Below, piece by piece: positions 18,699 to 39,349 of a stretch of 47,589 bases of DNA (the first letter of the stretch is position 1; each line of letters begins with the position of its first letter). The translations under genes were made by a program, and so were the position numbers. Source of the DNA: an uncultured bacterium (GTDB lineage: Bacteria > UBP6 > UBA1177). The notes under the pieces were generated by a model, which searched no databases, was not told the DNA's origin, and worked only from the letters and a program-made list of their open reading frames with translations. Location: the NCBI GenBank assembly GCA_905233945.1, contig CAJOFY010000009.1, positions 1 through 47,589 of the forward strand, in the 5' to 3' direction.

Positions 18699-19568
18699 AT
18701 GAATCCTGACTTTTTTAAGCCGCTTTTTGATTTTTTCGGCGCATACTATCCCGGTTCGTACATGACAATCCTCTTTTTTTCGTTCTTTATGACCGTTCCG
18801 ATAATGATCATGGCATCAAAACGCTTCGGTTTGAGCCTTAAAAAGATGATTTTCATGCCGCTCGTGATAGTTCCCAGCGCTCTTGTTTTCTCGAAAATCT
18901 TTCACATTCTGTTTGAAGGGCAGCTTCCGAATTATATTGAAGGTTTGAAAGAGAACGGAATAAGCTATCTTTTCACTAAAATGCTCAATCCTTTTGTCGC
19001 AGGGCATGTTTTTTACGGCGGGCTTCTCGGCGGTTTCATTGCCGGAGCTGTTTTCACGATGATTGCACATCCGCACGATGAAAAATCGTTTCTCAGAACC
19101 GCAGATACAGCTTCAATCTGTGTTGCGAACGGGCTCTGGCTTACGAGAATAGGCTGCTTCCTCGAAGGATGCTGTTTCGGAAGACCGTCGGAAATTTTCG
19201 GAATCCGTTTCCCGCAGGGATCAAAGACGATGTTCGTGCTTTTTCATATCGATCCGGAGCACACGAATCTTTTTACGGATACTCCGCCGCTGATTCCGAC
19301 ACAGCTGATACACTCGTTCAGCAACTTTGTGATTTTTGTCGTTCTTCTGAAGCTTGCATTTTCCGGAAAACAGAAAAATCCAGGCCGTATTTCGGCGGTT
19401 TTTCTTCTTTCATATTCGGTGACGCGCTTTCTGATCGAGTTTCTGCGCTACGACATCCGCGGCAGTTTCCTGATTTTTTCGACAAGCCAGTGGATTTCGA
19501 TTTTCCTTTTTATCGGCGGTTTTTTACTTTGGAAAAAGACTGGAACAGCTGAAAATCTTAAAAAATAG
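18699..19568 (+). CDS. lgt: Lgt-family prolipoprotein diacylglyceryl transferase (divergent)
   Basis: A 289-residue multi-span inner-membrane protein. Lgt moves diacylglycerol from phosphatidylglycerol to the lipobox Cys of prelipoproteins. Family segments: HVFYGGLLGGFIAG (about 104-117), LTRIGCFLEGCCFGRP (about 147-162, matching the R-(I/V)-G-(N/C)-F signature with the Arg), IPTQLIHSFSN (about 205-215), and RFLIEFLRYDIRG followed by FSTSQWISI (about 243-268, the C-terminal Arg/Glu motif). The usual 'FHGGL' His is Tyr here, and EGCCFG is the form seen in Lgt-like paralogues, so it may be a second copy with altered substrate. It closes the operon, 9 bases after the ATPase gene. The many lipoproteins in the window are potential substrates. 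Confidence 0.8.
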   Translation: MNPDFFKPLFDFFGAYYPGSYMTILFFSFFMTVPIMIMASKRFGLSLKKMIFMPLVIVPSALVFSKIFHILFEGQLPNYIEGLKENGISYLFTKMLNPFVAGHVFYGGLLGGFIAGAVFTMIAHPHDEKSFLRTADTASICVANGLWLTRIGCFLEGCCFGRPSEIFGIRFPQGSKTMFVLFHIDPEHTNLFTDTPPLIPTQLIHSFSNFVIFVVLLKLAFSGKQKNPGRISAVFLLSYSVTRFLIEFLRYDIRGSFLIFSTSQWISIFLFIGGFLLWKKTGTAENLKK

Positions 19569-20988: not shown

Positions 20989-20997
20989 GTCAATCTC

Positions 20998-23900: not shown

Positions 23901-26775
23901 CTCTGTTGTCGCCGCAGTATCCGCCGCCGCCCGGTGTTGTGCAGTCAGCGCTGCAGTGACCCGGATAATACGGAGTGTAGACTCCGTTGAGTTCTTTGTC
24001 GTCGCACTCCTCGTTTACGTGCAGTCCTTCGATTACGACGCAGTTTGTGTATCCGGTGCAGTCTTCACGGAGGATTATTCCGTCGCCGCATTTCGGCGGT
24101 TTCCCGGTGCATGTCGAGTTGCATTCAGCGTTGTAGTCTTTGTTGTTACCGGCGCCGTCATCGCAGGTTTCACCGTGCGACTCGTCAGTCCAGTGGTCGC
24201 CGCAGTATGAAGGAACTCCGCTTCGTTTCCTGCAGTCTGAACCGCATCTTTCACAGCTTGTATCGCCGTATGTGCAGTAAATTTTTCCGTTGTCGGAGGC
24301 TTCGTCGCAGGTTTCGCCGTTTGCCGAATCTGTATTGCCGTCGCCGCAGAAACCGCCTGCACCGCTGCCTTTGCAGTCAGAGTTGCAGTATCCAGTTGTT
24401 CCGCTGTTGTATTTGCCGTTGTTTTCTCCGTCATCGCAGACTTCGCCCTGCGCTGTTTCGACTACTCCGTCGCCGCAGCGTCTTCCTTCGCTCTTGCAGT
24501 CTTCTGCGCAGTGGCCGTACTGACCGTTGAGTTCTTTGTCGTCGCAGACTTCGCCGGCAGTTACGATTCCGTCACCGCAGCGTTCACCCGCACCGGTACA
24601 GCTTGTGCTGCAGTGTCCGTATTCTCCGTTGTGGCCGCCTGAAGCCTGGCTGCCCTCGTCGCAGCTCTCGTTTGCACCAGGAGTAACGACGCAGTTGAGG
24701 AAGCCGGCGCAGTTTGCGCGCTGGAGTATTCCGTCGCCGCAGTAAGCCGTTGTCGTGCCGGGAGCCTTTTTGCAGAATTTTGTGCAGACTTCGCAGCTTT
24801 CCTTGCCGTAAGGACAGTTGAAGTTGCCGTTGAGCCCGCCTTTGTTCGGATCGCCGTCGTCGCACTGCTCGCTGCCGTTTTGCTCGAAGTCACCGCAGTA
24901 GGGGCCCATTCCGGAGCAGTCTTCTTTGCAGTATCCGTAATGTCCGTTGTTTGTTTTACCGCTGTCGCACGCTTCGAAGGGCTCGTCTGTTACTCCGTCG
25001 CCGCAGTATCTCGCATTTCCGGTGGTGTTTTTGCAGTCTATCGTGCAGGCTGTGCAGGCTTCATCGCTGCCGTAAGGACAGTCGGGGTTGCCGTTGAGTC
25101 CGCCGTTGGCCGGATCGCCTTTGTCGCACTGTTCGTTTCCGTTTACTTCGCCGTCGCCGCAGTTTCCGCTGATCTTTTTGCAGTTGTTGGTGCAGTAAGG
25201 AGAGTTCGGATCGCCCTCTTTTTTCGGATCGCAGACTTCGTTTTCCTGGATGGTTCCGTCGCCGCAGGATCCGATTACTTCGGTGCAGTCCGCCGAGCAG
25301 TAGTAAGGTCCGATTCCGGCGCCGTAGGTTGCCTTGTCACATCTTTCACCTGCGTCGGAAGAGATTACGCCGTCGCCGCAGTATCTCGGGATTCCGGGCT
25401 CTTTTTTACACTTTTTCGTGCAGCCCGAGCATGTGCTTGTTTCGGGGCCGTACGGGCACTCTTTCGGTATGCCGTTCAGTGATGCTCTGTCGCACTCCTC
25501 GCCCAATCCTGTGATTTCTACGCAGTTTCCTTCACCGGAGCAGTTTTCTCTCTGAATTACGCCGTCGCCGCATTTGCCGTAGTAAGTTTTGCAGTCGTAT
25601 GAGCAGTAAGGGCCGTTTCCTTCTCCGAAAGAGGCGTTGTCGCATTTCTCGAAATCCTGGATTATGCCGTCGCCGCATTCGCCGAATTTCTGCTTGCAGT
25701 TAGCCGAGCAGTAGTCGCCGTTTTTGTTGTTTCCGTCGTCGCATACTTCGTTTGTCTGTTTGATACCGTCGCCGCAGTACGGGCCTTTGTCTGTGCAATT
25801 CGAGTTGCAGTAGCCGGGAGCCGTTTCGGAGTAACGCCCGTTGTTGTTTTTATCGTCGCACGCTTCGTTGAGCTGGACTATACCGTCTCCGCAGCTTCCT
25901 GTTACTTCGGTGCAGTTTACGTTGCAGTAGTAAGGTCCGGTACCTTCGCCGGCACCGACATCAGGTTCGGCGTTGTCGCACTTTTCCGGGCCGTTGATTT
26001 TTCCGTCGCCGCAGAAACCGGTTACTTCGGAGCAGTTCTCGTTGCAGTATTTGTCGAGAGCTTTGTCGCAGACTTCGTTGTTCTGCTTGATACCGTCGCC
26101 GCAGTAGCCTGTGACAACGTGGCAGTCGGGGCTGCAGTAGTCGCCTGTCGAAGCGTTTCCGTCGTCGCAGATTTCGCCGTCGTCCACGATTCCGTCCTGG
26201 CAGCGCGCCCATGTGCAGTTTGTACGGCAGGTTTTGTTGTGGATTCCGGGTTCATTGCTGTTTTCAGCGCCGTTGTCGCACTCTTCGCCCGGATCTCTCA
26301 GGCCGTTTCCGCATTCCGGAGTGTAACCCTGATTGTCGCCGTCGTTTGTTCCGGAATCGGAGTCGTCCTTGTCGTTTCCCGAGTCGGCATCGTCCTTGTC
26401 GCCGTCGTTTGTTCCGGAATCGGAGTCATCCTTGTCGTCTTTGCCGGAATCGGCATCGTCCTTGTCGCCGTCGTTTGTTCCAGAGTCAGTATCGTCCTTT
26501 CCTGAGTCTGAATCGTCATCTCCCGGTTTGCCGTCGTCTTCATCCGGAGCCGAATCGTTGTCCTTGTCATCGGTTTCGGAAGATTTGCTGCATACGTTGT
26601 CGAGGCAGACGAGCCCATTTCTGCAGTCTTCGTTTTTTTCGCACGGATCGCCGAGCCAGCCTGAAGCTGAGGTGTTGTCTTCATCCGGATAGTCGTAAAT
26701 CGTTGTCTCCTTTTTGTGACATGCCGAAAGAGCCGAAATGAAAACCAGGCAAAGAAAAATCTTGAAAAATCTCAT
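20998..26775 (-). CDS. Giant cysteine-rich lipoprotein: about 33 CGDG (DUF4215-type) repeats and two DUF1566 domains
   Basis: A 1925-residue protein beginning with the lipoprotein signal MRFFKIFLCLVFISALSAC. A CEKNEDCRNGLVCLDNVC module (about 40-63) comes first, then an Asp/Ser/Gly linker of tandem repeats (about 70-150). From about 153 to 1600 run some 33 repeats of the form CGDGxxxxxEECDDGxxN...CNxxC, the DUF4215/Myxococcus cysteine-rich type. Several are a long variant with an extra disulfide loop (for example INREDCTGYTNCVV then NEECDDG). The last 300 residues hold two DUF1566 units (GQDAQF, SGLMWQAATPDIYG, NSNWRLPTAAEL; KMRLPTVSELMWLFN, TAWSSTTVENAP, IVICIE). The repeats probably form a long disulfide-rigid stalk on the outer membrane presenting the C-terminal domains. 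ATG 26775 has GGAG seven bases upstream. First gene of a two-gene operon. Confidence 0.88.
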   Translation of the reverse strand: MRFFKIFLCLVFISALSACHKKETTIYDYPDEDNTSASGWLGDPCEKNEDCRNGLVCLDNVCSKSSETDDKDNDSAPDEDDGKPGDDDSDSGKDDTDSGTNDGDKDDADSGKDDKDDSDSGTNDGDKDDADSGNDKDDSDSGTNDGDNQGYTPECGNGLRDPGEECDNGAENSNEPGIHNKTCRTNCTWARCQDGIVDDGEICDDGNASTGDYCSPDCHVVTGYCGDGIKQNNEVCDKALDKYCNENCSEVTGFCGDGKINGPEKCDNAEPDVGAGEGTGPYYCNVNCTEVTGSCGDGIVQLNEACDDKNNNGRYSETAPGYCNSNCTDKGPYCGDGIKQTNEVCDDGNNKNGDYCSANCKQKFGECGDGIIQDFEKCDNASFGEGNGPYCSYDCKTYYGKCGDGVIQRENCSGEGNCVEITGLGEECDRASLNGIPKECPYGPETSTCSGCTKKCKKEPGIPRYCGDGVISSDAGERCDKATYGAGIGPYYCSADCTEVIGSCGDGTIQENEVCDPKKEGDPNSPYCTNNCKKISGNCGDGEVNGNEQCDKGDPANGGLNGNPDCPYGSDEACTACTIDCKNTTGNARYCGDGVTDEPFEACDSGKTNNGHYGYCKEDCSGMGPYCGDFEQNGSEQCDDGDPNKGGLNGNFNCPYGKESCEVCTKFCKKAPGTTTAYCGDGILQRANCAGFLNCVVTPGANESCDEGSQASGGHNGEYGHCSTSCTGAGERCGDGIVTAGEVCDDKELNGQYGHCAEDCKSEGRRCGDGVVETAQGEVCDDGENNGKYNSGTTGYCNSDCKGSGAGGFCGDGNTDSANGETCDEASDNGKIYCTYGDTSCERCGSDCRKRSGVPSYCGDHWTDESHGETCDDGAGNNKDYNAECNSTCTGKPPKCGDGIILREDCTGYTNCVVIEGLHVNEECDDKELNGVYTPYYPGHCSADCTTPGGGGYCGDNRVTDGEVCDQGRTINGTYGGNCNANCNGYTSYCGDGVTNEPYEKCDDRDPEKGGKNGTYGFCNTDCTAILECGDGIPDPVNEQCDEGRDVNGTITDCAYGEESCTLCDSECHTFDGATAYCGDGIIHREDCTGYNNCVFTPGANEECDDGDPATGGHNGEYNHCNATCSGYEPKCGDGKINREDCTGYTNCVVIDGLHVNEECDDGDENGDYGKCNQNCSGTVMCGDGVVSHGEVCDDGVMNGHYNSCDRCIINKTGWCGNGRLEKEIGTCGGAQGCYELMDADEQCDWGSSNGKVTDCAYGIVNCEVCNGTCGLEPGNASFCGDGFINRQNCTGYTNCVVTPGANEECDDGDPSTGGHNGSIGFCSSTCNGMQPYCGDGEVTAGEVCDDGDPSTGGHNGENGYCNSTCDGMQPYCGDNIVQRPECNTWKTCDEETTIGCCIVDLTMNEGCDDGENNGSQYYCYTDCSGWCGDGILQKHNCDGLDNCVVSPYVDETCDEGSLNDHPGHCNSICTGPTSVCGNGEVEKGEACDDGNTIEGDYCSADCQVETGRCGDGDPQINETCDEGENNGFHGHCNKTCSGTSSCGDGEIGYDEVCEPGTMEEPFLCSGILQFASTGETGIVDSCTSSCMPIFSNCEYDTTYISPFLTTGQTLCYNSAGTAISPCPAGGAAFYGQDAQFNYIPHSFETMENGEIIKDNASGLMWQAATPDIYGATIEGMGYKTCTEELPDPGKSCKHYEASLYCKYLSIGDNSNWRLPTAAELSTIADYASATHIHTGFTNTKGSYWTQEGFLFSSADGTLTPATDIDTDTGQIKCVSSVNNQSGCTSFQCKQNINYDSMFLFDSPDMIITYYYDLNSVAFTSWYFADLSTGYNWENALNFCTTSTSPNGLSKMRLPTVSELMWLFNRTNSTSMIPGFTGTAWSSTTVENAPTDPAEPASHAYAVDFSTGSVVYTPKSSSNIVICIE
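26333..26500 (-). repeat. Minisatellite of 63-66 bp units encoding the Asp/Ser/Gly linker
   Basis: Three copies of a unit beginning (plus strand) ttgtcgccgtcgtttgtt start at 26333, 26396 and 26462, so the period is 63-66 bases, in frame. They encode GTNDGDKDDADSG-type repeats in the linker between lipid anchor and cysteine-rich stalk. In-frame units allow length variation between strains. Confidence 0.75.
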
Positions 26776-26878: not shown

Positions 26879-26903
26879 GGCAAGAACGAAGCGAAAACTT
26901 GCC
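26879..26903. repeat. Inverted repeat GGCAAG-N13-CTTGCC in the divergent promoter region
   Basis: Perfect 6-base arms at 26879-26884 and 26898-26903, 30 bases before the start of the propeller-AraC gene. No T-run follows on either strand in the right place for a terminator. Its position between the divergent giant-lipoprotein and sensor genes makes a regulator site possible but unproven. Confidence 0.35.
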
Positions 26904-26932
26904 AAAAAAAATCCGGTTTTTAAAATCGCCGT

Positions 26933-29494
26933 ATGTTTGTGTTGTTTTTGTGTTTCATATTTCTCTTTTTAAGTCCGCCGGAAATTGCAGGGGATGAAAT
27001 TTCGTCCGCCGGTTTTTCCAGCTTTGTCTCCCGTTCCTGGTCCGCGCCGGCAGAGCTGCCCCACAACAGCGTAACCTCTTTTTACCGCGATGAAAACGGT
27101 CTGCTCTGGGTCGGAACGGTCGAAGGCCTTGCCAGAATCGGCTCGAAATCGTCGAAAATTTTTGCAACGAACACAAATGCAGCGATTCTAAGCAATAAGA
27201 TCAATGCTCTGACAGGCTGCGGAGGCAAAGTTTTCGTCGCTTCGGCAAAAGGGATCTCCGAAATCGGAAACTCCGGCGGAACAGTGTCGGGAATTTTTGA
27301 TTCGCGCGGGATTTCTGCTCTTGCCGCGGTTTCCGGCTGCGTTCTCTATGCCAGCGACGGCAAAGAAATTTTTGAGATAAAGTCCGGTAAAATCAATAAG
27401 TTGACAAATCTGAACGATTTATCCGGCAGCTCTGTTACGGCACTTTTTTCAGACGGCGGGAACCTTTACGCCGGTTTTGAAAGCGGAGCCGTGCATTCCT
27501 ATTCGGACGGTGTTTTTTCGGAAAACCTCTGTCCAGCCAATTCTGCTCCGGTGACGTCCGGAAAAGCGGCGGACGGCAGGGTTCTGGCCGGAACCGCAAA
27601 AGGGGAGATACTTGAAATCGGAAACGGAAAGTGCCTGAAAACCGCCGAGTCGGGGAGGCGTGAAGCTGTGACTTCGCTCGATTTCAGCGGCAGAACCGTT
27701 GTTTTCACTTCAGGCGGGGAGCTTTTTTTCGCGGAAAACGGCGCGGTCAAGGCCTGCGGCGCTTTTTGTGCCGGCAGCGGTTCGGTTTCCGGCGTAATGC
27801 TTGACAACGGCCTGGTATGGCTTTCGGGCAGCCGCGGAATGACTCTCTTTTACCCGGGAAAATTCATAACTTTGGGGCGGGAATCGGGGCTCCTGAATGA
27901 AAAAGTCTATGCTCTTGTCGAGGACGGAAAGGGGAGAGTCTGGGCCGGAACTCGCGGCGGCGGGCTTTTTGTCCACGAAAACGGAAAGTTCAGGTACGTA
28001 AAGGACAGAAAAGGCGACATCGGGCGTTTTGTCGGCGGAATGCTGCATGACGAAGACGGGAACATTCTTGTCGGAACGACGGACGGAATCGTAAGTTTCT
28101 CGCCGGAAAAACCCAGTGTTTTCCGCAGGATGAAAATGGAAAAGGGAACTTCGGCAAGTGCCGTGAGCGTAATTTTCCGCGACAGAAAATCGCGTCTCTG
28201 GGCAGGCGGCGGCGGCGGAGCGATATACATCGAAACCAAAAAGGGCTGGCATCTTCTGAGAAAGTTCGGCGACGATTCCGATTTTGTCTCCGCGATAGCC
28301 GAGGATGCTGCGGGAAACCTTTGGTTCGCTTCCTCGAAAGGACTCTGGCAGCTTAATGAAAACAATGAATTTCACGAAATAAATCAGGAACTTGCGCTTG
28401 ATGTTCCGGTTTCTCTCCTTGTCACGGACGGAGGAAGTGTCCTGGTCGGGACGATGAACCGCGGAATATATGTCATCACCAGGGATATGAAAATATCGCG
28501 CATAGATTCGCGGAAAGGGCTCTGCAGCGACACGGTTCTCGGAATCACGGGGGACGATCTCGGAAATCTCTGGTTTTCGAGCACAAAAGGGATTTTTGCC
28601 ATCCCCGAGGAGCGTCTTTTGGAAGCCGCTTCTGCTGAAAACGGTTCCGTGGAGTGCCTTCTTTTCGGTTCGGACGACGGGATCCGCCGCCCTGAATCGA
28701 CCGGCGGTGTCCAGCCTTCTGTTCTGAAGCGTAAAAACGGCGATTTGTGGTTCCCGACGCTTGAAGGAATCGCTGTTTTGGAGAAAAACGGAAGAAAAAC
28801 GGCGGGATTTTATGCCGAAGTGCCGGAAAGCGAGCCTGTTATTATTGATGAAAACGAAAAGAAATCAAGTTATTCCTTTATCTGGCTCGTTCTGGCGGCT
28901 CTTGGTGTGACCGCGTTTTTTGTGCTGAAGAAAACAAAAAAGGAAAACCTCACCCCGGAATCCATCTCTGTGGCGAGGGGAGAAAACCTCACCCCGGAAC
29001 CACAGACCTCACCCCCAGCCCCTCTCCAGAGTGGCGAGGGGAGAGATGCCGTGTCGGGGGAAGAAAATGATGAGATTTTCGACCCTGAAACCGATGCGGT
29101 TGATGTTAAGCCGAAATATGAGGGCTATCAGCTCGACGATGAGGTTGCGGCGGCGTACGCGGAGGAGGCGAAAGCTCTGATGGAGAAGGAAAAACTTTAC
29201 AGAAATCCGGATCTTACGCTTCCGGTGCTGGCAAAGAAGCTGAAACTTACACCGAATACCCTTTCTCAGGTTTTGAACGGCTACTGCGGGCAGAGTTTCT
29301 ACAATTTTGTCAACGGTTACAGGCTTGAAGAGGTCGTTTCGATGATGCGCGACCCTGAATTTGATGATAAAAGCGTCCTTGAGCTCCTTTACGAAGCGGG
29401 CTTCAAATCGAAGAGCACTTTCAATCCGATTTTCAAGAAATGGACAGGAAAAACTCCCAGCGAATACCGGAAGGAAATCCAGGAAAAAAGATAA
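26933..29494 (+). CDS. Transmembrane beta-propeller sensor with cytosolic AraC-type DNA-binding domain
   Basis: An 853-residue protein. N-terminal signal or anchor (MFVLFLCFIFLFLSPPEIAG), then two-component-regulator-type propeller repeats over about residues 35-630, each with a 'LWVGT..GL....' motif (LLWVGTVEGLARI, VWAGTRGGGLFVH, NILVGTTDGIVSF, NLWFASSKGLWQL, SVLVGTMNRGIYV, NLWFSSTKGIFAI, DLWFPTLEGIAVL). A single span follows at about 646-664 (FIWLVLAALGVTAFFVLKK), then a linker containing a repeat-derived insert (about 671-704), and an AraC/XylS HTH at about 743-853 (LTLPVLAKKLKLTPNTLSQV ... GFKSKSTFNPIFKKWTGKTP). It lacks the Y_Y_Y, histidine kinase and receiver domains of hybrid two-component systems, so it is a direct one-component membrane regulator. 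No ribosome site is visible at ATG 26933. Neighbours suggest control of the surface-protein or pilus genes (inference). Confidence 0.85.
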   Translation: MFVLFLCFIFLFLSPPEIAGDEISSAGFSSFVSRSWSAPAELPHNSVTSFYRDENGLLWVGTVEGLARIGSKSSKIFATNTNAAILSNKINALTGCGGKVFVASAKGISEIGNSGGTVSGIFDSRGISALAAVSGCVLYASDGKEIFEIKSGKINKLTNLNDLSGSSVTALFSDGGNLYAGFESGAVHSYSDGVFSENLCPANSAPVTSGKAADGRVLAGTAKGEILEIGNGKCLKTAESGRREAVTSLDFSGRTVVFTSGGELFFAENGAVKACGAFCAGSGSVSGVMLDNGLVWLSGSRGMTLFYPGKFITLGRESGLLNEKVYALVEDGKGRVWAGTRGGGLFVHENGKFRYVKDRKGDIGRFVGGMLHDEDGNILVGTTDGIVSFSPEKPSVFRRMKMEKGTSASAVSVIFRDRKSRLWAGGGGGAIYIETKKGWHLLRKFGDDSDFVSAIAEDAAGNLWFASSKGLWQLNENNEFHEINQELALDVPVSLLVTDGGSVLVGTMNRGIYVITRDMKISRIDSRKGLCSDTVLGITGDDLGNLWFSSTKGIFAIPEERLLEAASAENGSVECLLFGSDDGIRRPESTGGVQPSVLKRKNGDLWFPTLEGIAVLEKNGRKTAGFYAEVPESEPVIIDENEKKSSYSFIWLVLAALGVTAFFVLKKTKKENLTPESISVARGENLTPEPQTSPPAPLQSGEGRDAVSGEENDEIFDPETDAVDVKPKYEGYQLDDEVAAAYAEEAKALMEKEKLYRNPDLTLPVLAKKLKLTPNTLSQVLNGYCGQSFYNFVNGYRLEEVVSMMRDPEFDDKSVLELLYEAGFKSKSTFNPIFKKWTGKTPSEYRKEIQEKR
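28943..29043. repeat. GC-rich dispersed-type repeat inserted in frame in a coding linker
   Basis: Two copies of an 18-base direct repeat, gaaaacctcaccccggaa (28943-28960 and 28982-28999), and two of ggcgaggggag (about 28972 and 29033). The second half forms a hairpin, cccctctcc (29010-29018) against ggcgagggg (29033-29041), with 8 of 9 bases paired. The whole looks like the 'ctcacccccagcccctctcc...gaggggag' dispersed repeats found in many bacterial genomes. It encodes ENLTPE...SPPAPLQSGEG inside the sensor's cytosolic linker. Confidence 0.65.
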
Positions 29495-29721
29495 ACTGAC
29501 AGAAAATCAACAAAAAATTATAAAAAAAACCGCAAAAAAAAGCTGTTTTTAAGCAAAAAATAAAAAATCGCATAAATTCTTGATTTTATTTTGGAAATAT
29601 GGTACGAATCTACACAGCCGTACTTTTGGCGGCATTTTCTGATGTTCTTTTCTACACGGACGGACGAAATTATTTTGTATTTATTATAAAAAAATTCGTT
29701 GATTTGACGGAGGTTGACGAA

Positions 29722-30459
29722 ATGAGAAAACGTGGTTTTTCACTGATTGAGGTGCTGATTGCGATGGGGATTCTGACAATCATCGCAACCGTAGCCGTTC
29801 CGAAAGTCCAGGTCTGGAACGCCAGAAACCGCGGACTTCAGTCTGTAATGGAACTTATTTCCGATTTCTCGAAGGCAAAGTCTGTTGCCGGTTACACGGT
29901 TGCGGTCAGTTCCGACTCCGGAACAATTACCATTCCTGCAGGGGGAACCGACACCATGAATATCTACATGGGGATCCGCCGCCAGACAGCGATGGTTTTC
30001 GGAAAGTCGGAATATGCGATCTATCAGAAAGATTCGATGGATACCACAAGCTGGGATAATACGGCGCTTCTGCTGAAGAAAAATGTGCTTCTCGATACCG
30101 TAACTCTTGAATATGTCAACAAAAAAACTACGGCGGCAAGTGTCTCGAACTTCGACGGCTCTACCATTCTCAACTTCACTTCGACGGGAAAGATCAAGGA
30201 TATCAACGGCACGCTGATAGATTCCTCCCAGAGCGACGGAACCTGCGGCCCCGGTGTTCCGGCACGCTATCTCCAGAAGATTCTTTTTTCCGTTATTCTC
30301 AGGTCAAGGATTTCAAAAGGGGAAAACGATTCGATATGGTACCGTGTCGATATAGATCAGAGGGGTGAGTATTCCGTCTGCACCGTTTTCTCTTCTGAGG
30401 AACAGGCCAGTGCTGTGAAGGACAAGTTCGCAAGTGACGGCATCATGTTGGATATTTAG
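29722..30459 (+). CDS. Type IV minor prepilin (FimU/GspH-like)
   Basis: The start is ATG 29722, eight bases after acggagg; this places the class III prepilin signal at the N-terminus: MRKRGFSLIEVLIAMGILTI, cleaved after RG with Phe at +1 and Glu at +5. The hydrophobic helix (about 6-27) is followed by a 215-residue globular part containing two Cys (SDGTCGPG near 175 and YSVCTV near 220), matching the GspH/FimT-type minor pilins that help prime pilus assembly. It is the first gene of a run matching the order fimU-pilV-pilW-pilX-pilY1. The 227-base region upstream (29495-29721) is AT-rich; I could not pick a convincing promoter in it. Confidence 0.85.
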   Translation: MRKRGFSLIEVLIAMGILTIIATVAVPKVQVWNARNRGLQSVMELISDFSKAKSVAGYTVAVSSDSGTITIPAGGTDTMNIYMGIRRQTAMVFGKSEYAIYQKDSMDTTSWDNTALLLKKNVLLDTVTLEYVNKKTTAASVSNFDGSTILNFTSTGKIKDINGTLIDSSQSDGTCGPGVPARYLQKILFSVILRSRISKGENDSIWYRVDIDQRGEYSVCTVFSSEEQASAVKDKFASDGIMLDI

Positions 30460-30468
30460 GAGGAAAAC

Positions 30469-31032
30469 ATGAGAAAAATCAAGGCTTTCACTCTTATTGA
30501 AGTTATGGTTTCGATCTTCATTTTCACAACGGCGATGCTCGGTTTCATGTCTTTCCACGCACATTCGATGTCGGTTATTTTTGACAACGAGTCGGCTCAG
30601 TTCGCCCACGCGATCGCCTTCAACCTCGTCGAGGAAATAAACTCGATGTCATTCAAGGATTTCAAATCTCTTGCAGCTCAGACTTCGTCCAGAACGAAGG
30701 ATACGATTCTGAAGAGCGATAACTATATGGGGGCGACTTACGGCGTAAGTCCTTTTTATATGACAGGCGATTATTCGTCGGAGAGCAGCTACAGGTTCAA
30801 CCGTTACATCCAGACGCTGAAATATACCGATGAACTTGTCAGCGGAGCTTATGTCGCACCGGGATCGTTCATGGATACTCTTTATGTGGTCAGGGTCGAG
30901 GTTTTCTGGCCGAAACGCGGCTACGGAACCAAAGAATGCTACAAGGGTGTCTCTAATTTCGACAAAGAGTGCAACAGCATCTCTCTCCCGCTCGTAAGGT
31001 CGAACAAACAGACTTTCAAAGTCGCTAAATAA
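30469..31032 (+). CDS. pilV: Type IV minor prepilin (PilV-like)
   Basis: A 187-residue protein with prepilin signal MRKIKAFTLIEVMVSIFIFTTAML (key features: Lys-Ala at the cleavage site, Phe +1, Glu +5). The residue before cleavage is Ala, not the usual Gly. The mature protein has one N-terminal helix and a short globular head with a KECYKGVSNFDKECNS disulfide candidate near the C-terminus. PilV-type minor pilins form part of the tip complex with PilW, PilX and PilY1. The symbol rests on size, signal and gene order. It starts 9 bases after the previous stop with aggagg upstream, so it belongs to the same operon. Confidence 0.8.
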   Translation: MRKIKAFTLIEVMVSIFIFTTAMLGFMSFHAHSMSVIFDNESAQFAHAIAFNLVEEINSMSFKDFKSLAAQTSSRTKDTILKSDNYMGATYGVSPFYMTGDYSSESSYRFNRYIQTLKYTDELVSGAYVAPGSFMDTLYVVRVEVFWPKRGYGTKECYKGVSNFDKECNSISLPLVRSNKQTFKVAK

Positions 31033-31048: not shown

Positions 31049-32128
31049 ATGAAGAAATGTTGTTCTGCAAAGGCTTTTACCATTATAGAGCTTATGGTGA
31101 GCATTTTTATCACTGTAACGATCATTGCTTCCTTTTATAAACTGTACGATGCGTCGGTCAGAACCGAGCGCTCAGCTTCGATCCGTGTCGCCGTAAACCT
31201 TATGGGCGAGCAGATGATCGACACTATCGCCGAGTCTATACGTCTGATGGGGCTCAACAGCGTGAAGAGCGATTATCTGGAATCGACAGGCGCTGACGGC
31301 AATGTCGGAATCATCCGCCATGCCGGCGAGTATAAATTCGTCTATCTTTCCCCGTACGGTTCCCCGATCACGAAAGTCAAGACAGCCGAATCAAATTTTC
31401 CGTCATGCAAGTTCAAACTTTTCAATACTGCCGCTTTCTACAACGGTGTAAACAAACTCTATTTCCACAATGAGGACGGTTTCTTCAAGACGGTTTCCGT
31501 CGGAACGCCTACCTATCTTTCAGACGGTATACAGGTAAATGTTACTTTTTCAGAAAACGACAAGTACAATACAATCGGCTGCGAACAGGTTTTTCCGGAA
31601 GGCTCGCTTGTTACGGGCGAAGATTTTGTCTATACGCTGGAATATACATCGGGCGGCACCGGCTCAACCAACTCTCTGACACTTTCCTATGCGAAGGAAA
31701 GCAGCGCTGTCGGTGTAACCGACGGTACCCTGGTGGATTTCAGCTACAATCCGGAGAATAACAACAATTATTATAGTATGCCTAAATTCGTTCTGGAGTA
31801 TCTCGTTGAAAGTTGCACAGAAGAAAATGAAACAGTTGTCTGCCAGAGAAACTGGAAAACTCCGAAAAGCAGTGTTCTTGAGGCGGAAGATGTAAAGGGT
31901 ATGATCGCGGTCAGGTTCGGTTTCATCCTTCTTTCCAGAAAAGAGAGGGTTTACTCCGGCAGCGACACTCCCGGCAGTCTGCCGACATACTGTATATTCA
32001 AATCGGATAACGATCAGGATTACTACTGCGACACTCTGCCGAGCTTGAACTATACGGCTTCCGTTTTCCGCAAGGTTGTTTATCTTGCGAACTACCGTTT
32101 CCTTAAAGATCAGACACCAGTTGAATAG
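31049..32128 (+). CDS. pilW: Type IV minor prepilin (PilW-like)
   Basis: A 359-residue protein, the typical larger size of PilW/GspJ-type minor pilins. Prepilin signal: leader MKKCCSAKA followed by FTIIELMVSIFITVTIIASF; cleavage would be after KA, with Phe +1 and Glu +5. The leader carries two adjacent Cys. The head includes RVAVNLMGEQMIDTIAESIR (the amphipathic helix typical of PilW) and several Cys pairs (SCKFKL, GCEQVF, ESCTEENETVVCQ, TYCIF...YYCDTL). It lies 16 bases after pilV with aggagg upstream. It is expected in the PilY1-containing tip complex that primes fibre assembly. Confidence 0.8.
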   Translation: MKKCCSAKAFTIIELMVSIFITVTIIASFYKLYDASVRTERSASIRVAVNLMGEQMIDTIAESIRLMGLNSVKSDYLESTGADGNVGIIRHAGEYKFVYLSPYGSPITKVKTAESNFPSCKFKLFNTAAFYNGVNKLYFHNEDGFFKTVSVGTPTYLSDGIQVNVTFSENDKYNTIGCEQVFPEGSLVTGEDFVYTLEYTSGGTGSTNSLTLSYAKESSAVGVTDGTLVDFSYNPENNNNYYSMPKFVLEYLVESCTEENETVVCQRNWKTPKSSVLEAEDVKGMIAVRFGFILLSRKERVYSGSDTPGSLPTYCIFKSDNDQDYYCDTLPSLNYTASVFRKVVYLANYRFLKDQTPVE

Positions 32129-32140
32129 GTGAGGTGGCAA

Positions 32141-32779
32141 ATGTTCGATTTTATTGGTAAAAAACGACCGGGGGTCGCGCTTTTCATCAGCGTTCTGATG
32201 ACGTTGACCCTTTCGATTATCGCTCTCGCGACGATGGCAAGGCTTTCCGAAAGTGCCCACACGACAGGAAAAGAGCTTCAGGACAAGAGGCTTCTGGCTT
32301 ACGCTTATTCGGCTGTAAACATCGTGAACGGCGAGCTCAGAAACCTTATCGATTCGACTTTCCAGTTTGAGGAAGCCTACTCCCTTTCGGGCAACCTCGG
32401 CGGCAGTACGACCAGCAACGACGGTAAATTCAGATATTTTCCCAAGGATATCATGTCGGCCACGAATGCTTCCGACATGCCTGATTTCGCATACCGCGCC
32501 GTTGCGAGGAAAGTAACGAAAACGGATTATCCGAAACTTTACGGCCTGAATGAAGACAAGAAGACAAAATACGGTTCTGATTCAAACGCCTGCTACGATA
32601 TAACGGTCGATGTCAGGGAAGTCATGTATGTCGGAGCCAGCAGCTATGTCACTTTCAAGGACAACAGCAACGTAATCCAGGGCAAAAACGATTTCGCACT
32701 CGGCAAAATGAAAACCATCGGTTTGATAAGCTGTTTTTCAAGAGACGGCGAGAACGAATACGCAGAAGATGATGATTAA
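32141..32779 (+). CDS. pilX: Type IV minor prepilin (PilX/GspK-like)
   Basis: The start is ATG 32141, six bases after gagg (32131-32134); an upstream GTG (32129) overlaps that site. The leader MFDFIGKKRPG is followed by VALFISVLMTLTLSIIALAT, with no Glu at +5, as is usual for PilX/GspK proteins, which sit at the very tip. The 212-residue product continues with ARLSESAHTTGKELQDKRLLAYAYSAV (amphipathic helix), again PilX-like, and a small head with one Cys near the middle (SNACYDITVDVREV) and one near the end (GLISCFSRDG). It lies between the PilW-like and PilY1-like genes, the order in Pseudomonas. Confidence 0.8.
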   Translation: MFDFIGKKRPGVALFISVLMTLTLSIIALATMARLSESAHTTGKELQDKRLLAYAYSAVNIVNGELRNLIDSTFQFEEAYSLSGNLGGSTTSNDGKFRYFPKDIMSATNASDMPDFAYRAVARKVTKTDYPKLYGLNEDKKTKYGSDSNACYDITVDVREVMYVGASSYVTFKDNSNVIQGKNDFALGKMKTIGLISCFSRDGENEYAEDDD

Positions 32780-32803: not shown

Positions 32804-35800
32804 ATGAGAAAAGACACATTTTTCAGCAAAATTTTTACTGTATTTCTGCTTGTCATCTCTTTCTCTTCCGGCGTTTATGCCGAGGCTACGACGATGTCAG
32901 ACAGTCTCAAGGACGATGTAACGGCGATGATCACCAATGCGAAGAAACTGCCGCATCAGATTTTTATCGTCGATTCGTCTGAAAGCATGAACACCTCCGC
33001 ATACAGCGATTATCTCGATACGTGCGCGGACGGCAAAACCAACCTCGAAAAGGCGCTGGCTCTTTGCAATAACGCTGTAAAGCAGTGTCATAACGTCGAA
33101 AGCAACGCGATGTGCGACGTCGATCTCGGGTGCGGTGACGTACAGTCAAAATGTACCGAGATCGAGAAACTGAAAACCAAGCTGAATGCACAGTGCCTCA
33201 AGGCTGAGACCATACTCGGCAAAGTCGGCATATACGAAACTGACGCGTATGACGGTTCCAAGGCTAAAAAATATGTAGGTCCCTGGGATCCGAGCAAATT
33301 TTATGACGACGACCTCTGTTTCTATGACTGGACTGCCGATACGAACTCCGATGTCATCGAAGGAACAAAGGCTTACGAAGACGAGATGGCAAGGGCTAAA
33401 CAGGCGGCTGCCGACGCAAACGAAGCAGCGGGCACAGACATTTATACCGCTGACAATTTCCTGAATCTCGGCAACCTCTATGGCGGCTCCGCGAACGAGT
33501 ACAACAAGCAGAAGCTCTGCCAGAAATGGGGCAAAACCGGTGAGGACTGCGACAAGGCTTTCAATAATTTAAAAGCGCAGAGCGGTGGCTACGTCACCGA
33601 CCGCCGCGACTGGGACTGCCTGACCGACGGTTCCGGAACTTTCCTTCATAAAAGCGCAGATCTGGACACCGATTCCTGGCAGCAGATGAAGGTTGACAAA
33701 GGCGGTGTCAGCGGACTCTGGCTCAACTGGAAGTACGCTACGTCGCTTGACGCCATCAAAATTATCCTTGCAAATATCCACGAATTTTCATTCCCGCCGA
33801 GAAAACGCGGCGACGACGAGTGTTACAGATCCGTTTATATCCCGTATCAGGAATATCAGGACGCCATTGTCTGCTCCGACGATGATGTTGCGGCAGGCAA
33901 TTTCGGCTGTCAGGAAGCCGGTGCTCCGGTAAACTGTTCCGAAGCCGATGTCGAGAATCATGAGACTGAAAACAGCAACTGTGACAGCGAAAGCGCGGTG
34001 GGAAACCCGAAATATGTCACCAGAAAGGCGTGTTTCGTCGCTTTCGAGCCTACGCTCGGCGAAAATGAGGAGAAGCTTAAATCTCTCAGGACGGCAATAG
34101 ATTCAATGTGGACTGTCCAGCAGAAAGTTCCGGATGTTGATGCTGAAGCTTCCGAAAACAACGCCTGCGATCCTACGAAATGCGACAGCTTTATGGGTGA
34201 CTTTGTCCACAAATTTCCGATACACAAAGCCAATGACTATGGAAATTACACTACAGATTCCTCCCAGTGCGACAAGTGCTACAAGTGGGAGCTCAACGCC
34301 GACAACACCGGCGTTTTTGTCGAGACCGACTGTCACAGCTTCTCGGGTACTACGGAAGGTGCCGGCGAGACAAAAACGCTCGGATCGGTCGATGAAACCC
34401 TTTCCAAGCAGTGCTGCAAGGCTTTCAACTGTACAAACCCGAAATGCAGGGACAACGATATCTGCTGCAAAGACAACGCAGGTGCTTATCCTGACGCTGC
34501 TCACGGCGGTGACGAGAATCTCGAAGGCTACAAGACATGCAGGAAAGTAGGCGAAGGCGGCGCGGATTATTCGTGTGTACTCGGCTTCTACAGTGAATAC
34601 GACCAGGATGCAAACCACTGCTGTGCCGAGTCTTCATGCGCCGAAGCCGGAACGTCATCGACTTATCACGATGATTTTCTTGATATGGATTGCGACAAAT
34701 GCGATACCGGCTCCGCTCTGGGAAGCGATACTTTTGAGACAACCACCGGAGTTGTCAAGATTCTTCCGCATGCTGTCGATGATGACGGAAATCCTCTGGC
34801 TTACTGCGGTGTAAACAGCACCGAGGACAACTGCCAGGACATCAAAGTGACTGTCGGCATCAAATCTGAAGCCACTGTCAATTACGACGAAATTTCGAGC
34901 ATAAAGTTCACTGTTTACTATGACTGCGAGGATTCGGGCAACGACCACCCCGACCATCTTCTCGGAACAGGAACCTGCTCTTCTGCTTCAACCTGCGAAG
35001 CCGTTGTCAGCGGCGATCTCAGCGGATGCAGCGAGGAAGGCTACCGCATGGAGGCTTTTGTCACGGTAACGCGCAAAAGCTGCCATTTCTCCGAGATGAA
35101 TGTCAAGTTCGACGTAGGTTATTCGTTCGGCGATTTCAAAGACGGTGCCTATGAAGGTTACGCGCACGGTACATATTCCAACAGAACGGTTTTCCAGACC
35201 GACGAGGCGTTCTACAATACTTATAGTTATCAGACGACATCCTCTGCCGACAAAGTTTACGAATACGAGTGCAAAGCTTCTTTCTACAACAGGGAAGTCG
35301 TTACCCTCGACGGCGGTTCCTGCCCGAGCGCATCGAATGCTCCGTCATACATCAACCAGGGCCGTGAGGGCGAAAAGGTCGAGTTCTGCGAGGCCAGAAC
35401 CTATGAAAGAGAGGTCCTTGCCAGAGACCAGTGGCTGCAGCCGACAAAAGTTGCGTGTTCGTGGCTCTGCAGAACGGCTGAAACATACGATGACCCGTGG
35501 AAATGCGCATCTTTCTTCTATATGATGGACGATATTCAGCGTAACGGCCCCGAGTCGTGCAAGAACGGTGAGTGCAAATCTGCAATGACTTCCAACAGCG
35601 CCCTGGAATCGTGCTGCAAGTGCGTAAGCCAGTCTCAGGGCCAGTATTACCACCATGAGACTCCGGGACAGGTACAAATGTCTAGCGGAACATACACATG
35701 TGCGGTCAGCGGCTATCAGTACGCGACGGGAAGCAACGGATTCACGACCACGGCAGGCGGCTTCCAGGCTGAAATCATCAACGGCCACACGAAGGAAGGC

Positions 35801-38800
35801 GGTACTGACGGATACTACAACCTTTCTCCTTACAGAATCCAGAATGAAGCCGGCGAGACCGTTCTCTGGTCTCCGTATCCGGAACAGAACGGATGGTATA
35901 CGCAGTTCAGCCTTATCCACTCGGTAAACGGCAGAAGATACCTCGGCGATTCACTTACAAGCCTTTTCACGACCAACGATCCGTCAGGCAGAATATCGGT
36001 CTGCATAAACGATCTTCTCTGGAACTGGGAGGGCGAAGACTGCAACAGCTGCGGAACCGGATGCTGCGCGATCGATTTGAGCCAGGACAGCAACAACTGC
36101 GATTATCCGCAGTTCTGGATGAAGATGCCGCACGGAAACGGCGGAAAACTTCTTCTCGGGGCTACCAACCTGCTGAGTGAAGGCGAAGCCGAGTTCAGAG
36201 CCCAGATCAAAGCTCTCAGGGCTGTAGGTCCTGCGACTCTCGGTGAAACGCTTTACGATTCATGGCGTTACCTCGGCGGAATGTACGCTCTTTATGACGC
36301 TGACTATAAATCGAAGCCCTACACTTCGCCGTACGAGGCCAATGACGCCGAGTGCTTTACAAACGAAGCTGTCGTCATTTCAGGCGGAAACCCGCAGTTC
36401 GACGACAACTACGAGCTTGAGAGAATCGGTGCCGCGACCTGTTCCGCAACATTCCAGGTTTACCAGACAGCTGCGCAGGTTCCGACGGATAAGCCGTGCA
36501 TAAAGAATTCCGGCTATGACGACGAGAGTCTTAAAAACTGGAGCGCTACCCAGCACAATCCTTATCTTACGGATCAGTGGGAGAAGAGTTCTCTCATGAA
36601 CGTCGCGAGATTTGTCAACAGAAACACTTTCTGGAGCAAGGATGAAAGCTGCCGTCATGCTTCGATTCAGGAGAACGGCGACGGTTACAGCACGGAATGC
36701 GGCGGAAACAACCCCAACGCTCAGGACATGGATGCAAATATTCCTCTTATTGACCGTGTCCACGCGATCGGAATAGGCGAATGGGGACTTACGGCGATGT
36801 ATCAGGTTCTTACCGGAAACAATCCTGACGCAACTTTCATTGACGCAAGCTTCATTCAGAATACCGCGACGATTACAGAACGTGACGGCGAGCAGGGAAG
36901 ATACTACACTCTGACGGCGACCGAGAATACAGGTTCCGGCAGCCAGACATGCAACGACGGTGCCGGCGGAAGTTTTAACGACCTCACATGTCTTTTCTCC
37001 TCTTTCGTAAACCAGCCCAGATCCACGGATGTCGTTGTCGGCAGGCCGCACTGGACTTCATCGCTTGTCCAGCCGTACGATGTCGAGGAAAAATACCGCG
37101 GTCCCGAGGCCTTTACTGCCGGAACGGTTCCTGTTGACGGAACTGTAAGCCGTTTCTGGTTCGGAAACCTCAAAAAATATGAAATTTCCAGTGAAAGCGG
37201 CGGTTCCTGCCCGATATACGACGACAACACCGCGAAGTGCGGCGAGTGGAAACGCCAGACTTTCGATGCGCTTGACTGTTTCGGAAAACAGGCGGGCGAT
37301 GTCGGCGGCGGTTTCTCTGTTCCGGAAGGCGGTTCGGAGGAGAATCTCAAGCAGTTCGAGAAGCTGATGATCGGCGGCGCTGCGGCACAGCTGAGGAAAA
37401 TGGCGGAAGAGTCGCCTGCGTGCGGCGAATTCCCGTGCTTCAAGTCTTCAGACAGAAAATTTTACTACGACCTTGACGGTTCGATGCATGATCTCAAGAG
37501 TACCGACGGCGGGGAACTGCTTTACAAGTTCAAACCTTTCAAAACCAACCTCACTGCTGATACGCTCAACAGAATTTTCGATTATATGGCCGGTTACGAC
37601 TCTTTCAAGACAACGGATGACGCAAGAAAGAAAATCAGATACAGCGAAGGCACCGGAGAAGAGACTTTCATGGTTGACGATCCGTTCAGCGTCGATTTCA
37701 ACCACACGACGAAACTTACGCTCCGTCCGCTTCTTCTCGGCGCGATAGTCCACTCGAAACCTGTTGCGGTTTACTATAACAATTCCTCTACGACAAGGAT
37801 CTATGCCGGAGCGAACGACGGTATGCTCCACGCGTTTGACGAGGAGGGCAAGGAGGTTTACGCCTATATGCCGACTCCTGCGTTCAAAAATATCACGAAT
37901 TTCGCTAACTCGAATTCGACCATATCCTTCAATGCCACGGTTGACGGTCCGATCACGCTGTTCCACATCGACCAGAGCCACGACGGAATCATCAACAACG
38001 GCGAGAAGGCATTCCTTATTTTCGGTTACAGACGAGGCGCTGCGGGCTACACCGTAATTGATGTCTCCAGTCCGGACAAACCGAAATTCGTACAGCATCT
38101 CAACACGGATGCCGGCTACAGTTTCGCCAAGGCGATGATTTTCAGAAAGTGTCTGGGCCAGTGCAGCTACGCGAACGATCTTGAGTACTATCTCGCAGTG
38201 CCCGGCGGTTACGACACTTGCCACGATCCTGCCGCTTTGACGACTGCCGACGAGGACAACTATACAACATGCGAGCAGAACGGACTCACCGGCAACAAGT
38301 TCAGACTCTACAAGTTCGACAAGACCGACAACAGGTTCTCGAGTTATGTCGAGTTCAGCACAGCCAATTCCTCGCCGCTCGGAGACTTCGAGAAATCGTG
38401 GCTTGTAACTTCGTTCACCGCAACTCCTTTTATCGTCAACACAAGCGGAAAAGCTGCGGTCAACACCGAATACGTCTACTTCACGGATCTTTCGGGAACC
38501 GTTTTCAGAGTCGATGTCACCTCAAATTCGATGTCTGACTGGACTGCAAAGGTCGTTTACGCAAAGAGAAACGGCGGAAGCGGCACGACGCTCAAGGAGG
38601 TCTCATGGGATGAAGTCGGCAGAACTTTCGTCGGCGCGACATTCTTCCCGCCGCTCGAAAGGTACAACCCGTCGAGAAAGTCGTCAGGCACAGCTGATAC
38701 CGAATGGAAGATTCCGTTCCCGGTAATCGCAGGAAACGCGGCCAACCCGAAGTTCATGAGACGTGAAGTCCTCACCACGTTCTACGACAACAAATCATCG

Positions 38801-39349
38801 GAATACGATTATGCTGATCTCTACGACAGCGACTTCTATCTCAACTCGGACGGTGAATCGCACACACCCAAGAACGAAATGATAGAAGAAAAGCACGGCT
38901 GGAGGGTAAGATTCGCCGACAACGGTGAAAAGGGTATTACCGAGCCGCTCATAGTCTACGATATCTACAACAGCGGAAGCGCAGACTCGTCGTTCAACAG
39001 CGCGAACAGCTATTCGATCGCGTGGAACACATACATTCCGATGAAGGCAACAAAGTGCAAGACTTTCGGAACGAGCAGCAACTACGAGAGATATATTCCT
39101 GACGGCTCGCAGGTATTCACCAACACCGAGATGACCGGCGAAAACGGCGAATGGACTCTTGCAGCCGACAACAGCGGTCAGTGCGTCTCCGAGGAGGCCA
39201 ACCTGAGTCTTGCTACGTCAGTCGGAATAGTCGCGACCGAAGACGGTTACGACCTCACTTTCGGTGCAGGTGCCGAGATCTTCAGAAAGCAGAAGCTCAC
39301 TGTCAAGAGGAACTCGACTTATATTATCAAATGGTATGAACTCTATTAG
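32804..39349 (+). CDS. pilY1: PilY1-like pilus tip protein, enlarged and cysteine-rich
   Basis: A 2181-residue protein, nearly twice the usual PilY1 length (about 1100-1200). It has a signal peptide (MRKDTFFSKIFTVFLLVISFSSGVYA), then a von Willebrand A-like segment starting near residue 50 with the metal-binding DxSxS motif in FIVDSSESMNTSAYSDYLD. A long cysteine-rich region (about 350-1130, with CCKAFNCTNPKC-type clusters) interrupts or extends this part. From about 1636 comes the PilY1 beta-propeller: RPLLLGAIVHSKPVAVYYNN, IYAGANDGMLHAFDEEGKEV, GAAGYTVIDVSSPDKPKF and a later EYVYFTDLSGTVFRVDV. Residues about 1723-1734, DQSHDGIINNGE, match an EF-hand-type calcium loop, the place where PilY1 binds calcium to regulate retraction. 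Same operon as the minor pilins (24-base gap, aagggg site). Confidence 0.9.
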   Translation: MRKDTFFSKIFTVFLLVISFSSGVYAEATTMSDSLKDDVTAMITNAKKLPHQIFIVDSSESMNTSAYSDYLDTCADGKTNLEKALALCNNAVKQCHNVESNAMCDVDLGCGDVQSKCTEIEKLKTKLNAQCLKAETILGKVGIYETDAYDGSKAKKYVGPWDPSKFYDDDLCFYDWTADTNSDVIEGTKAYEDEMARAKQAAADANEAAGTDIYTADNFLNLGNLYGGSANEYNKQKLCQKWGKTGEDCDKAFNNLKAQSGGYVTDRRDWDCLTDGSGTFLHKSADLDTDSWQQMKVDKGGVSGLWLNWKYATSLDAIKIILANIHEFSFPPRKRGDDECYRSVYIPYQEYQDAIVCSDDDVAAGNFGCQEAGAPVNCSEADVENHETENSNCDSESAVGNPKYVTRKACFVAFEPTLGENEEKLKSLRTAIDSMWTVQQKVPDVDAEASENNACDPTKCDSFMGDFVHKFPIHKANDYGNYTTDSSQCDKCYKWELNADNTGVFVETDCHSFSGTTEGAGETKTLGSVDETLSKQCCKAFNCTNPKCRDNDICCKDNAGAYPDAAHGGDENLEGYKTCRKVGEGGADYSCVLGFYSEYDQDANHCCAESSCAEAGTSSTYHDDFLDMDCDKCDTGSALGSDTFETTTGVVKILPHAVDDDGNPLAYCGVNSTEDNCQDIKVTVGIKSEATVNYDEISSIKFTVYYDCEDSGNDHPDHLLGTGTCSSASTCEAVVSGDLSGCSEEGYRMEAFVTVTRKSCHFSEMNVKFDVGYSFGDFKDGAYEGYAHGTYSNRTVFQTDEAFYNTYSYQTTSSADKVYEYECKASFYNREVVTLDGGSCPSASNAPSYINQGREGEKVEFCEARTYEREVLARDQWLQPTKVACSWLCRTAETYDDPWKCASFFYMMDDIQRNGPESCKNGECKSAMTSNSALESCCKCVSQSQGQYYHHETPGQVQMSSGTYTCAVSGYQYATGSNGFTTTAGGFQAEIINGHTKEGGTDGYYNLSPYRIQNEAGETVLWSPYPEQNGWYTQFSLIHSVNGRRYLGDSLTSLFTTNDPSGRISVCINDLLWNWEGEDCNSCGTGCCAIDLSQDSNNCDYPQFWMKMPHGNGGKLLLGATNLLSEGEAEFRAQIKALRAVGPATLGETLYDSWRYLGGMYALYDADYKSKPYTSPYEANDAECFTNEAVVISGGNPQFDDNYELERIGAATCSATFQVYQTAAQVPTDKPCIKNSGYDDESLKNWSATQHNPYLTDQWEKSSLMNVARFVNRNTFWSKDESCRHASIQENGDGYSTECGGNNPNAQDMDANIPLIDRVHAIGIGEWGLTAMYQVLTGNNPDATFIDASFIQNTATITERDGEQGRYYTLTATENTGSGSQTCNDGAGGSFNDLTCLFSSFVNQPRSTDVVVGRPHWTSSLVQPYDVEEKYRGPEAFTAGTVPVDGTVSRFWFGNLKKYEISSESGGSCPIYDDNTAKCGEWKRQTFDALDCFGKQAGDVGGGFSVPEGGSEENLKQFEKLMIGGAAAQLRKMAEESPACGEFPCFKSSDRKFYYDLDGSMHDLKSTDGGELLYKFKPFKTNLTADTLNRIFDYMAGYDSFKTTDDARKKIRYSEGTGEETFMVDDPFSVDFNHTTKLTLRPLLLGAIVHSKPVAVYYNNSSTTRIYAGANDGMLHAFDEEGKEVYAYMPTPAFKNITNFANSNSTISFNATVDGPITLFHIDQSHDGIINNGEKAFLIFGYRRGAAGYTVIDVSSPDKPKFVQHLNTDAGYSFAKAMIFRKCLGQCSYANDLEYYLAVPGGYDTCHDPAALTTADEDNYTTCEQNGLTGNKFRLYKFDKTDNRFSSYVEFSTANSSPLGDFEKSWLVTSFTATPFIVNTSGKAAVNTEYVYFTDLSGTVFRVDVTSNSMSDWTAKVVYAKRNGGSGTTLKEVSWDEVGRTFVGATFFPPLERYNPSRKSSGTADTEWKIPFPVIAGNAANPKFMRREVLTTFYDNKSSEYDYADLYDSDFYLNSDGESHTPKNEMIEEKHGWRVRFADNGEKGITEPLIVYDIYNSGSADSSFNSANSYSIAWNTYIPMKATKCKTFGTSSNYERYIPDGSQVFTNTEMTGENGEWTLAADNSGQCVSEEANLSLATSVGIVATEDGYDLTFGAGAEIFRKQKLTVKRNSTYIIKWYELY

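Follow-up and report, generated by a model that had tools for sequence, protein, structure and literature searches.

How might a signal outside the inner membrane reach a promoter when the receptor carries no kinase? This question is raised by an open reading frame near the middle of the window (the whole stretch of 47,589 nucleotides analysed here). We found that its predicted product is a membrane protein coupling an outside sensor to an inside DNA-binding part without a kinase. From the sequence comparisons, we consider it likely that this regulator is tethered to the membrane and, as a one-component system, activates the pilus-tip (minor-pilin/PilY1) operon lying downstream. The reading is supported by the architecture of the protein, synteny, a repeat pair that is unique in the genome, and persistence of the repeats after the regulator moved. 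The parts of the regulator are listed below.

26933..29494, + strand: regulator with propeller, single transmembrane segment, linker and AraC domain (open reading frame, 853 aa, ATG start)
27017..28798, + strand: predicted extracytoplasmic double beta-propeller, residues 29-622 (Reg_prop 5.7e-25, AlphaFold2, match to PDB 4a2l)
28871..28927, + strand: lone transmembrane segment, residues 647-665, followed by KKTKK (hydropathy; AlphaFold2 helix 648-664)
28928..29131, + strand: predicted cytosolic linker, residues 666-733, disordered, variable in length and acidic/proline-rich (pLDDT <50 at 660-733, alignment)
29228..29473, + strand: AraC-type DNA-binding domain, HTH_18, residues 766-847 (Pfam 2.4e-17)

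The first-pass annotation had proposed this anatomy of propeller, single span and cytosolic AraC domain, and it was borne out by Pfam, hydropathy and AlphaFold2. Besides Reg_prop and HTH_18, Pfam returned HTH_AraC (4.5e-8). The eight families listed at E<=10 included neither a kinase nor a receiver nor Y_Y_Y. The HTH_18 match spans model positions 1-79 of 80, indicating the two-HTH C-terminal domain of the AraC/XylS family, and is the only HTH_18 match in the 2.65 Mb genome. Hydropathy revealed two hydrophobic segments only, at residues 1-19 (signal peptide) and 647-665. Structure prediction, the check proposed with the first-pass annotation, showed the propeller repeats: the AlphaFold2 model (mean pLDDT 76, 11 sequences) has 54 strands at 31-616 (13.5 x 4), or about two 7-bladed propellers, followed by the membrane helix, the disordered stretch and helices at 736-852. 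The annotation had also raised a kinase domain hidden in the linker. This does not hold, because about 70 disordered residues are far too short for a histidine kinase. Orthologues at 60-67% identity in genomes of the same genus indicate that the gene is real. By prediction, DNA-binding domain and span lie in one chain with the sensor outside and without a phosphorelay, as in a one-component transmembrane regulator.

In the PDB, the modelled propeller matched best the periplasmic parts of hybrid two-component system (HTCS) sensors from Bacteroides: 4a2l (Z 32.4; rmsd 5.2 for 584 aligned residues) and 3v9f (Z 31.4; rmsd 4.1 for 566). The regulator shares with HTCS such as BT4663 and BT3049 the double Reg_prop propeller outside (Z 31-32) and the AraC-type domain inside, but lacks Y_Y_Y, histidine kinase and receiver, and its predicted targets are pilins rather than polysaccharide genes. 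ToxR, TcpP and SusR differ in having a sensor of another type, and the DNA-binding domain of ToxR and TcpP is a winged helix. Like the regulator, they have an outside sensor and a DNA-binding domain held at the membrane (PMC10269533 for ToxR and TcpP). For SusR, PMC3878776 describes a DNA-binding domain that does not resemble those of other known factors.

The uniqueness implied by the first-pass annotation was overstated. A class of transmembrane transcription regulators has already been described, and Y_Y_Y is present in 7.7% of its members (PMC10269533). Furthermore, among 80 named loci, two (L060 and L067, from an Aminicenantes and an Acidobacteria assembly) encode propeller, Y_Y_Y, transmembrane segment and AraC domain in one chain. 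These proteins have the domain order of the regulator and no kinase, but retain Y_Y_Y; 17 further window genes were also searched for, and none matched near them. In the literature searched by title and abstract opening, we recognised no described propeller-AraC regulator of pilins, nor an Lgt fusion. What is new here, judged from sequence, is the form lacking Y_Y_Y, the putative pilus-tip target with its predicted operator and the Lgt-fused form, while the propeller-Y_Y_Y-TM-AraC order already occurs elsewhere.

The regulator does lie, as was first noted, between two surface blocks: Cys-rich Lcl_C lipoproteins upstream on the - strand, and prepilins with a PilY1-like protein downstream. The neighbouring genes are as follows, the PilV, PilW and PilX names being assigned by position and relatives.

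18699..19568, + strand: Lgt-family membrane protein (LGT 1.1e-35), in other families of the order immediately upstream of the regulator gene or fused with it
29722..30459, + strand: prepilin that heads the downstream operon, FimU/FimT-like by position (N_methyl 6.5e-8)
30469-31032, + strand: minor-pilin-like gene, PilV position (N_methyl 2e-6)
31049-32128, + strand: minor-pilin-like gene, PilW position (N_methyl 0.0022, below cut-off)
32129-32779, + strand: minor-pilin-like gene, PilX position (N_methyl absent)
32804..39349, + strand: PilY1-like pilus-tip protein, 2181 aa (T4P_PilY1 0.0018, below cut-off; same-position orthologues in relatives)

The prepilin frame was listed from 29599, and its true start is at 29722 (MRKRGFSLIEV). 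Near the N-terminus of the PilY1-like protein, DSSES resembles a MIDAS, a motif given as DxSxS (PMC13190605). The - strand at 19573-26775 holds two lipoprotein-like genes with Lcl_C, and the product of one of them (1925 aa) contains numerous Cys-rich repeats resembling DUF4215. This divergent gene pair sits between the Lgt gene and the regulator in the window's genus, where the two genes diverge fast (40-77% identity). The genome has six Lgt-family matches (C13, C4, C9, which is the window copy, C50, C23 and C3), which seems many, and the window copy shows an FYGG motif where E. coli Lgt has HGG. Scanning the window against Rfam and for tRNAs gave no matches.

With window genes as queries against 18 regions, we found one arrangement of genes (regulator, pilinA, pilV, pilW, pilX, PilY1) repeated in three families of the order, f1, f2 and f3, within the limits set by contig ends. 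An Lgt-family gene lies just upstream of the regulator, or is fused to it, in the syntenic families. Of the 28 genomes examined from the phylum, 19 have the regulator (match list read manually) and 18 have PilY1; both are present in 16 and neither in 7. Three genomes have the regulator without PilY1: G014 and G017, where the genes lie at contig ends, and G010, which is 72% complete and gave no pilin match. PilY1 without the regulator was found in G001, whose contig begins inside pilW, and in G024, which is 65% complete. In G004, the regulator has moved to contig C7, behind a transporter-like ORF, and the pilin operon lies on C8. The regulator start abuts the stop of the transporter-like ORF there (L196:9308-14254, junction 11545/11546), which suggests, from the sequence, a new operon partner.

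The candidate control elements of the regulator gene and the pilin operon are listed below.

26899..26926, + strand: putative promoter of the regulator gene, TTGCCA-16-TAAAAT (judged only by its match to the consensus, with 0.7 such matches expected in shuffled sequence)
29609..29623, + strand: distal operator-like repeat TCTACACAGCCGTAC (repeat comparison across relatives)
29651..29665, + strand: proximal operator-like repeat TCTACACGGACGGAC, covering the -35 position, 42 bp from the distal repeat
29682..29687, + strand: -10-like TATTAT, 16 nt past the proximal repeat (read from sequence)

The regulator's promoter-like element ends 6 nt before the ATG. Its hexamers, spacing and 6-nt gap (with TAAAAT or TACAAT) are kept in 8/8 genus members and nearly so in L020. 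The predicted transcript start falls at the ATG, and the regulator mRNA is probably leaderless.

Between the regulator stop and the prepilin start we identified two copies of TCTACACnGnCGnAC, at 29609 and 29651. Both copies are kept with a few substitutions in 8/8 aligned intergenic regions of the genus. In other clades both copies change together, reading CTATAG...GTAC in G004 and TATAA...CGAAC/CGCACGA in f3. Although the sequence drifts, the two copies upstream of the prepilin gene remain 40-43 bp apart in all clades for which the promoter was available. Eight clade representatives, taken from 17 extracted regions, gave a score of 120 at offset 41 (+-1) versus 77 for the best unrelated offset; 0/200 dinucleotide-shuffled sets reached 120, and the null maximum was 94.5. 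Tested region by region, only 3/14 regions had a 42-bp repeat scoring above all 30 shuffles, and a different repeat scored highest in 6/14, the window included. The G004 promoter keeps two diverged copies 42 bp apart although its regulator is on another contig, and the element therefore belongs to the pilin promoter.

The exact pattern TCTACACNGNCGNAC has exactly two mismatch-free occurrences in the 2.65 Mb genome, both at the pilin promoter, and the paired pattern occurs once without mismatch. Since the pattern was derived from these same two copies, the informative part is the absence of other copies. With up to 2 mismatches the single-site pattern gave 84+77 matches versus 87+79 for the reversed-pattern control, i.e., chance level; with up to 3, the paired pattern gave 3 matches (two at 3 mismatches) versus 1 for the control. 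A wider regulon beyond the pilin operon was rejected on this comparison with the control, and autoregulation because an exact repeat copy is absent upstream of the regulator. The first-pass annotation had proposed that the regulator may control both flanking blocks. This was supported for the downstream pilin block, with its conserved operator-like repeat and order-wide synteny, but not for the upstream lipoprotein block, where a repeat copy was not found.

No sigma-70 promoter was scored in 29400-29800 (0 found, 1.0 expected in shuffles), and there is no good -35. The lack of a recognisable -35/-10 pair fits an activator-dependent promoter with the activator covering the -35 position. A site over the -35 position could also block polymerase, but in view of the missing pair it is quite unlikely that the regulator represses the same pilin operon. 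Another reading is that the repeats serve a different factor or an RNA leader element, and that the regulator acts elsewhere. In its favour, the window has a terminator-like hairpin overlapping the distal repeat, and the evidence pairing the regulator with the repeats is all comparative. We assign this reading a low probability, as the genome has one HTH_18 domain and one repeat pair, and the spacing is fixed near four helical turns while the sequence drifts. We infer from these comparisons that the regulator binds the repeats, and that the pilin operon is activated rather than repressed.

Furthermore, we compared the AraC domain with the promoter over 8 genus members, and found that their identities track each other (r 0.84-0.86, Mantel p 0.0003-0.0004). 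The correlation of promoter identity with the propeller, the membrane-proximal part, pilinA and pilW was 0.32-0.44. G013 illustrates this: its HTH and promoter most resemble those of G012/G008, its propeller that of G006/G011/G003, and its PilY1 and most of its pilins those of G011. Third codon positions also correlate with the promoter (r 0.757 for the HTH stretch, 0.544 for pilinA). Because the HTH adjoins the promoter and third codon positions track alike, the correlation is explicable by linkage or gene conversion. The tracking thus fits co-adaptation without being proof of it, and a shared conversion tract is also possible.

Under the preferred reading of a membrane-tethered activator, a signal would reach the double propeller outside the inner membrane, and the change would cross one transmembrane helix, probably through signal-driven pairing of two receptors. 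Pairing would set two AraC domains, on their long flexible linkers, onto the two direct repeats, which are separated by 42 bp or four helical turns. The missing -35 would be replaced by the proximal repeat, and the AraC domain bound there would recruit RNA polymerase. Direct-repeat sites with a long spacer are also found for Bacteroides HTCS (PMC3878776). Two AraC domains placed side by side through fused dimerisation domains activate transcription, in work cited in PMC11253607. The same paper states that the HTCS receiver is needed to hold the AraC domain off, under the control of receiver phosphorylation. In the regulator, a monomer-to-dimer step could hold the AraC domain off and then release it without a receiver.

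Regulator orthologues were detected at genus, family and order level. The propeller-end motif and the transmembrane segment are separated by 56-60 residues in 9 genus members versus 143-150 in 8 members of other genera and families, a count leaving out L016, whose ORF is cut by the contig end and whose span is at 648-666. Pfam recognised Y_Y_Y in L017, L018 and L022, and none in L020 or L027, though both have the long spacing. The simplest reading of these sequences is that about 90 residues, at the Y_Y_Y position, were lost in the window's genus only. A kinase is absent from every relative ORF read, and descent from a full HTCS is therefore unproven. Of the first-pass description of a 'stripped' HTCS, the loss of Y_Y_Y stood, in this genus, but a loss of kinase and receiver gained no support, the relatives having propeller, Y_Y_Y, span and AraC domain without a kinase. 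That the regulator is a decayed, functionless HTCS is hardly credible: it does look like one minus Y_Y_Y, kinase and receiver, but its frame is open, syntenic and conserved across the genus, with 71-94% identity in the HTH.

Sister genera carry further ORFs matching both propeller and AraC, so that orthology there rests on synteny, and the regulator appears from sequence to be one member of a small propeller-AraC family. In the four ORFs read from family f3 (L018, L021, L022, L023), an N-terminal Lgt-like part runs into the propeller with no stop between. The order is Lgt-family domain, signal-peptide-like segment, propeller, span and AraC domain, and Pfam found Y_Y_Y and LGT in the two tested. 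These fusions are single ORFs of 1231-1252 aa (L018:541-4233, L021:496-4251, L022:586-4311, L023:484-4209). Other propeller combinations were also seen: the second Reg_prop protein of the genome, on C15 (L003), is a propeller ORF whose relatives (L029, L032, L034) continue into a GGDEF-like part, and in L024 a propeller is joined to a methyl-accepting-like part (sequence read by eye).

Two readings specify the signal within the preferred explanation. By analogy with the HTCS, the propeller may bind an oligosaccharide, so that a glycan or surface polymer would turn the adhesive pilus tip on. This is a tentative possibility, the nearest solved folds being HTCS periplasmic domains, of which BT4663 senses heparin/heparan sulphate. 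However, the regulator lacks Y_Y_Y, carbohydrate-use genes were not recognised among the scanned neighbours, and a common fold need not mean a common ligand.

Alternatively, the periplasmic ligand of the propeller may be a minor pilin or PilY1, and the regulator would then tune the operon to assembly state or surface contact, as FimS-AlgR does in Pseudomonas. The operon most likely controlled encodes those very proteins. FimS-AlgR of Pseudomonas aeruginosa is like the regulator in controlling a minor-pilin/PilY1 operon, a control we infer for the regulator, and unlike it in being a two-protein system. AlgR carries a LytTR domain, and a LytTR response regulator had 0 matches in the genome, a result consistent with such feedback sensing by another protein. 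It argues against placing the regulator itself in the FimS-AlgR type, but leaves the functional analogy untouched. Self-inhibition of the minor-pilin operon through FimS-AlgR provides a precedent (PMC5979040). We regard this feedback as somewhat doubtful, as sequence divergence within the genus is rapid in the pilins and in PilY1 (38-59% identity in most PilY1 pairs) versus 69-86% for the second propeller, and the structural relatives of the propeller are glycan sensors. According to PMC10269533, Rsp of Neisseria gonorrhoeae also joins a membrane receptor to a DNA-binding domain and targets a pilin gene, but has a PilS-type receptor and a PilR-type domain, and represses that gene.

Taken together, the propeller-AraC receptor gains a predicted target and a predicted operator, making a kinase-free route from propeller to promoter testable by DNA-binding assay. 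The regulator also raises the question of how an AraC domain is held off and released without a kinase or receiver, and may offer a one-component counterpart to FimS-AlgR control of minor pilins and PilY1. In its broadest form, which is speculative and rather unlikely, an order-wide kinase-free receptor would read the state of the pilus-tip complex or surface contact, set transcription of that same complex through one span, and be fused to Lgt in one family. If true, the fusion to an Lgt-like lipoprotein transferase would join envelope lipidation and pilus-tip expression in one polypeptide.
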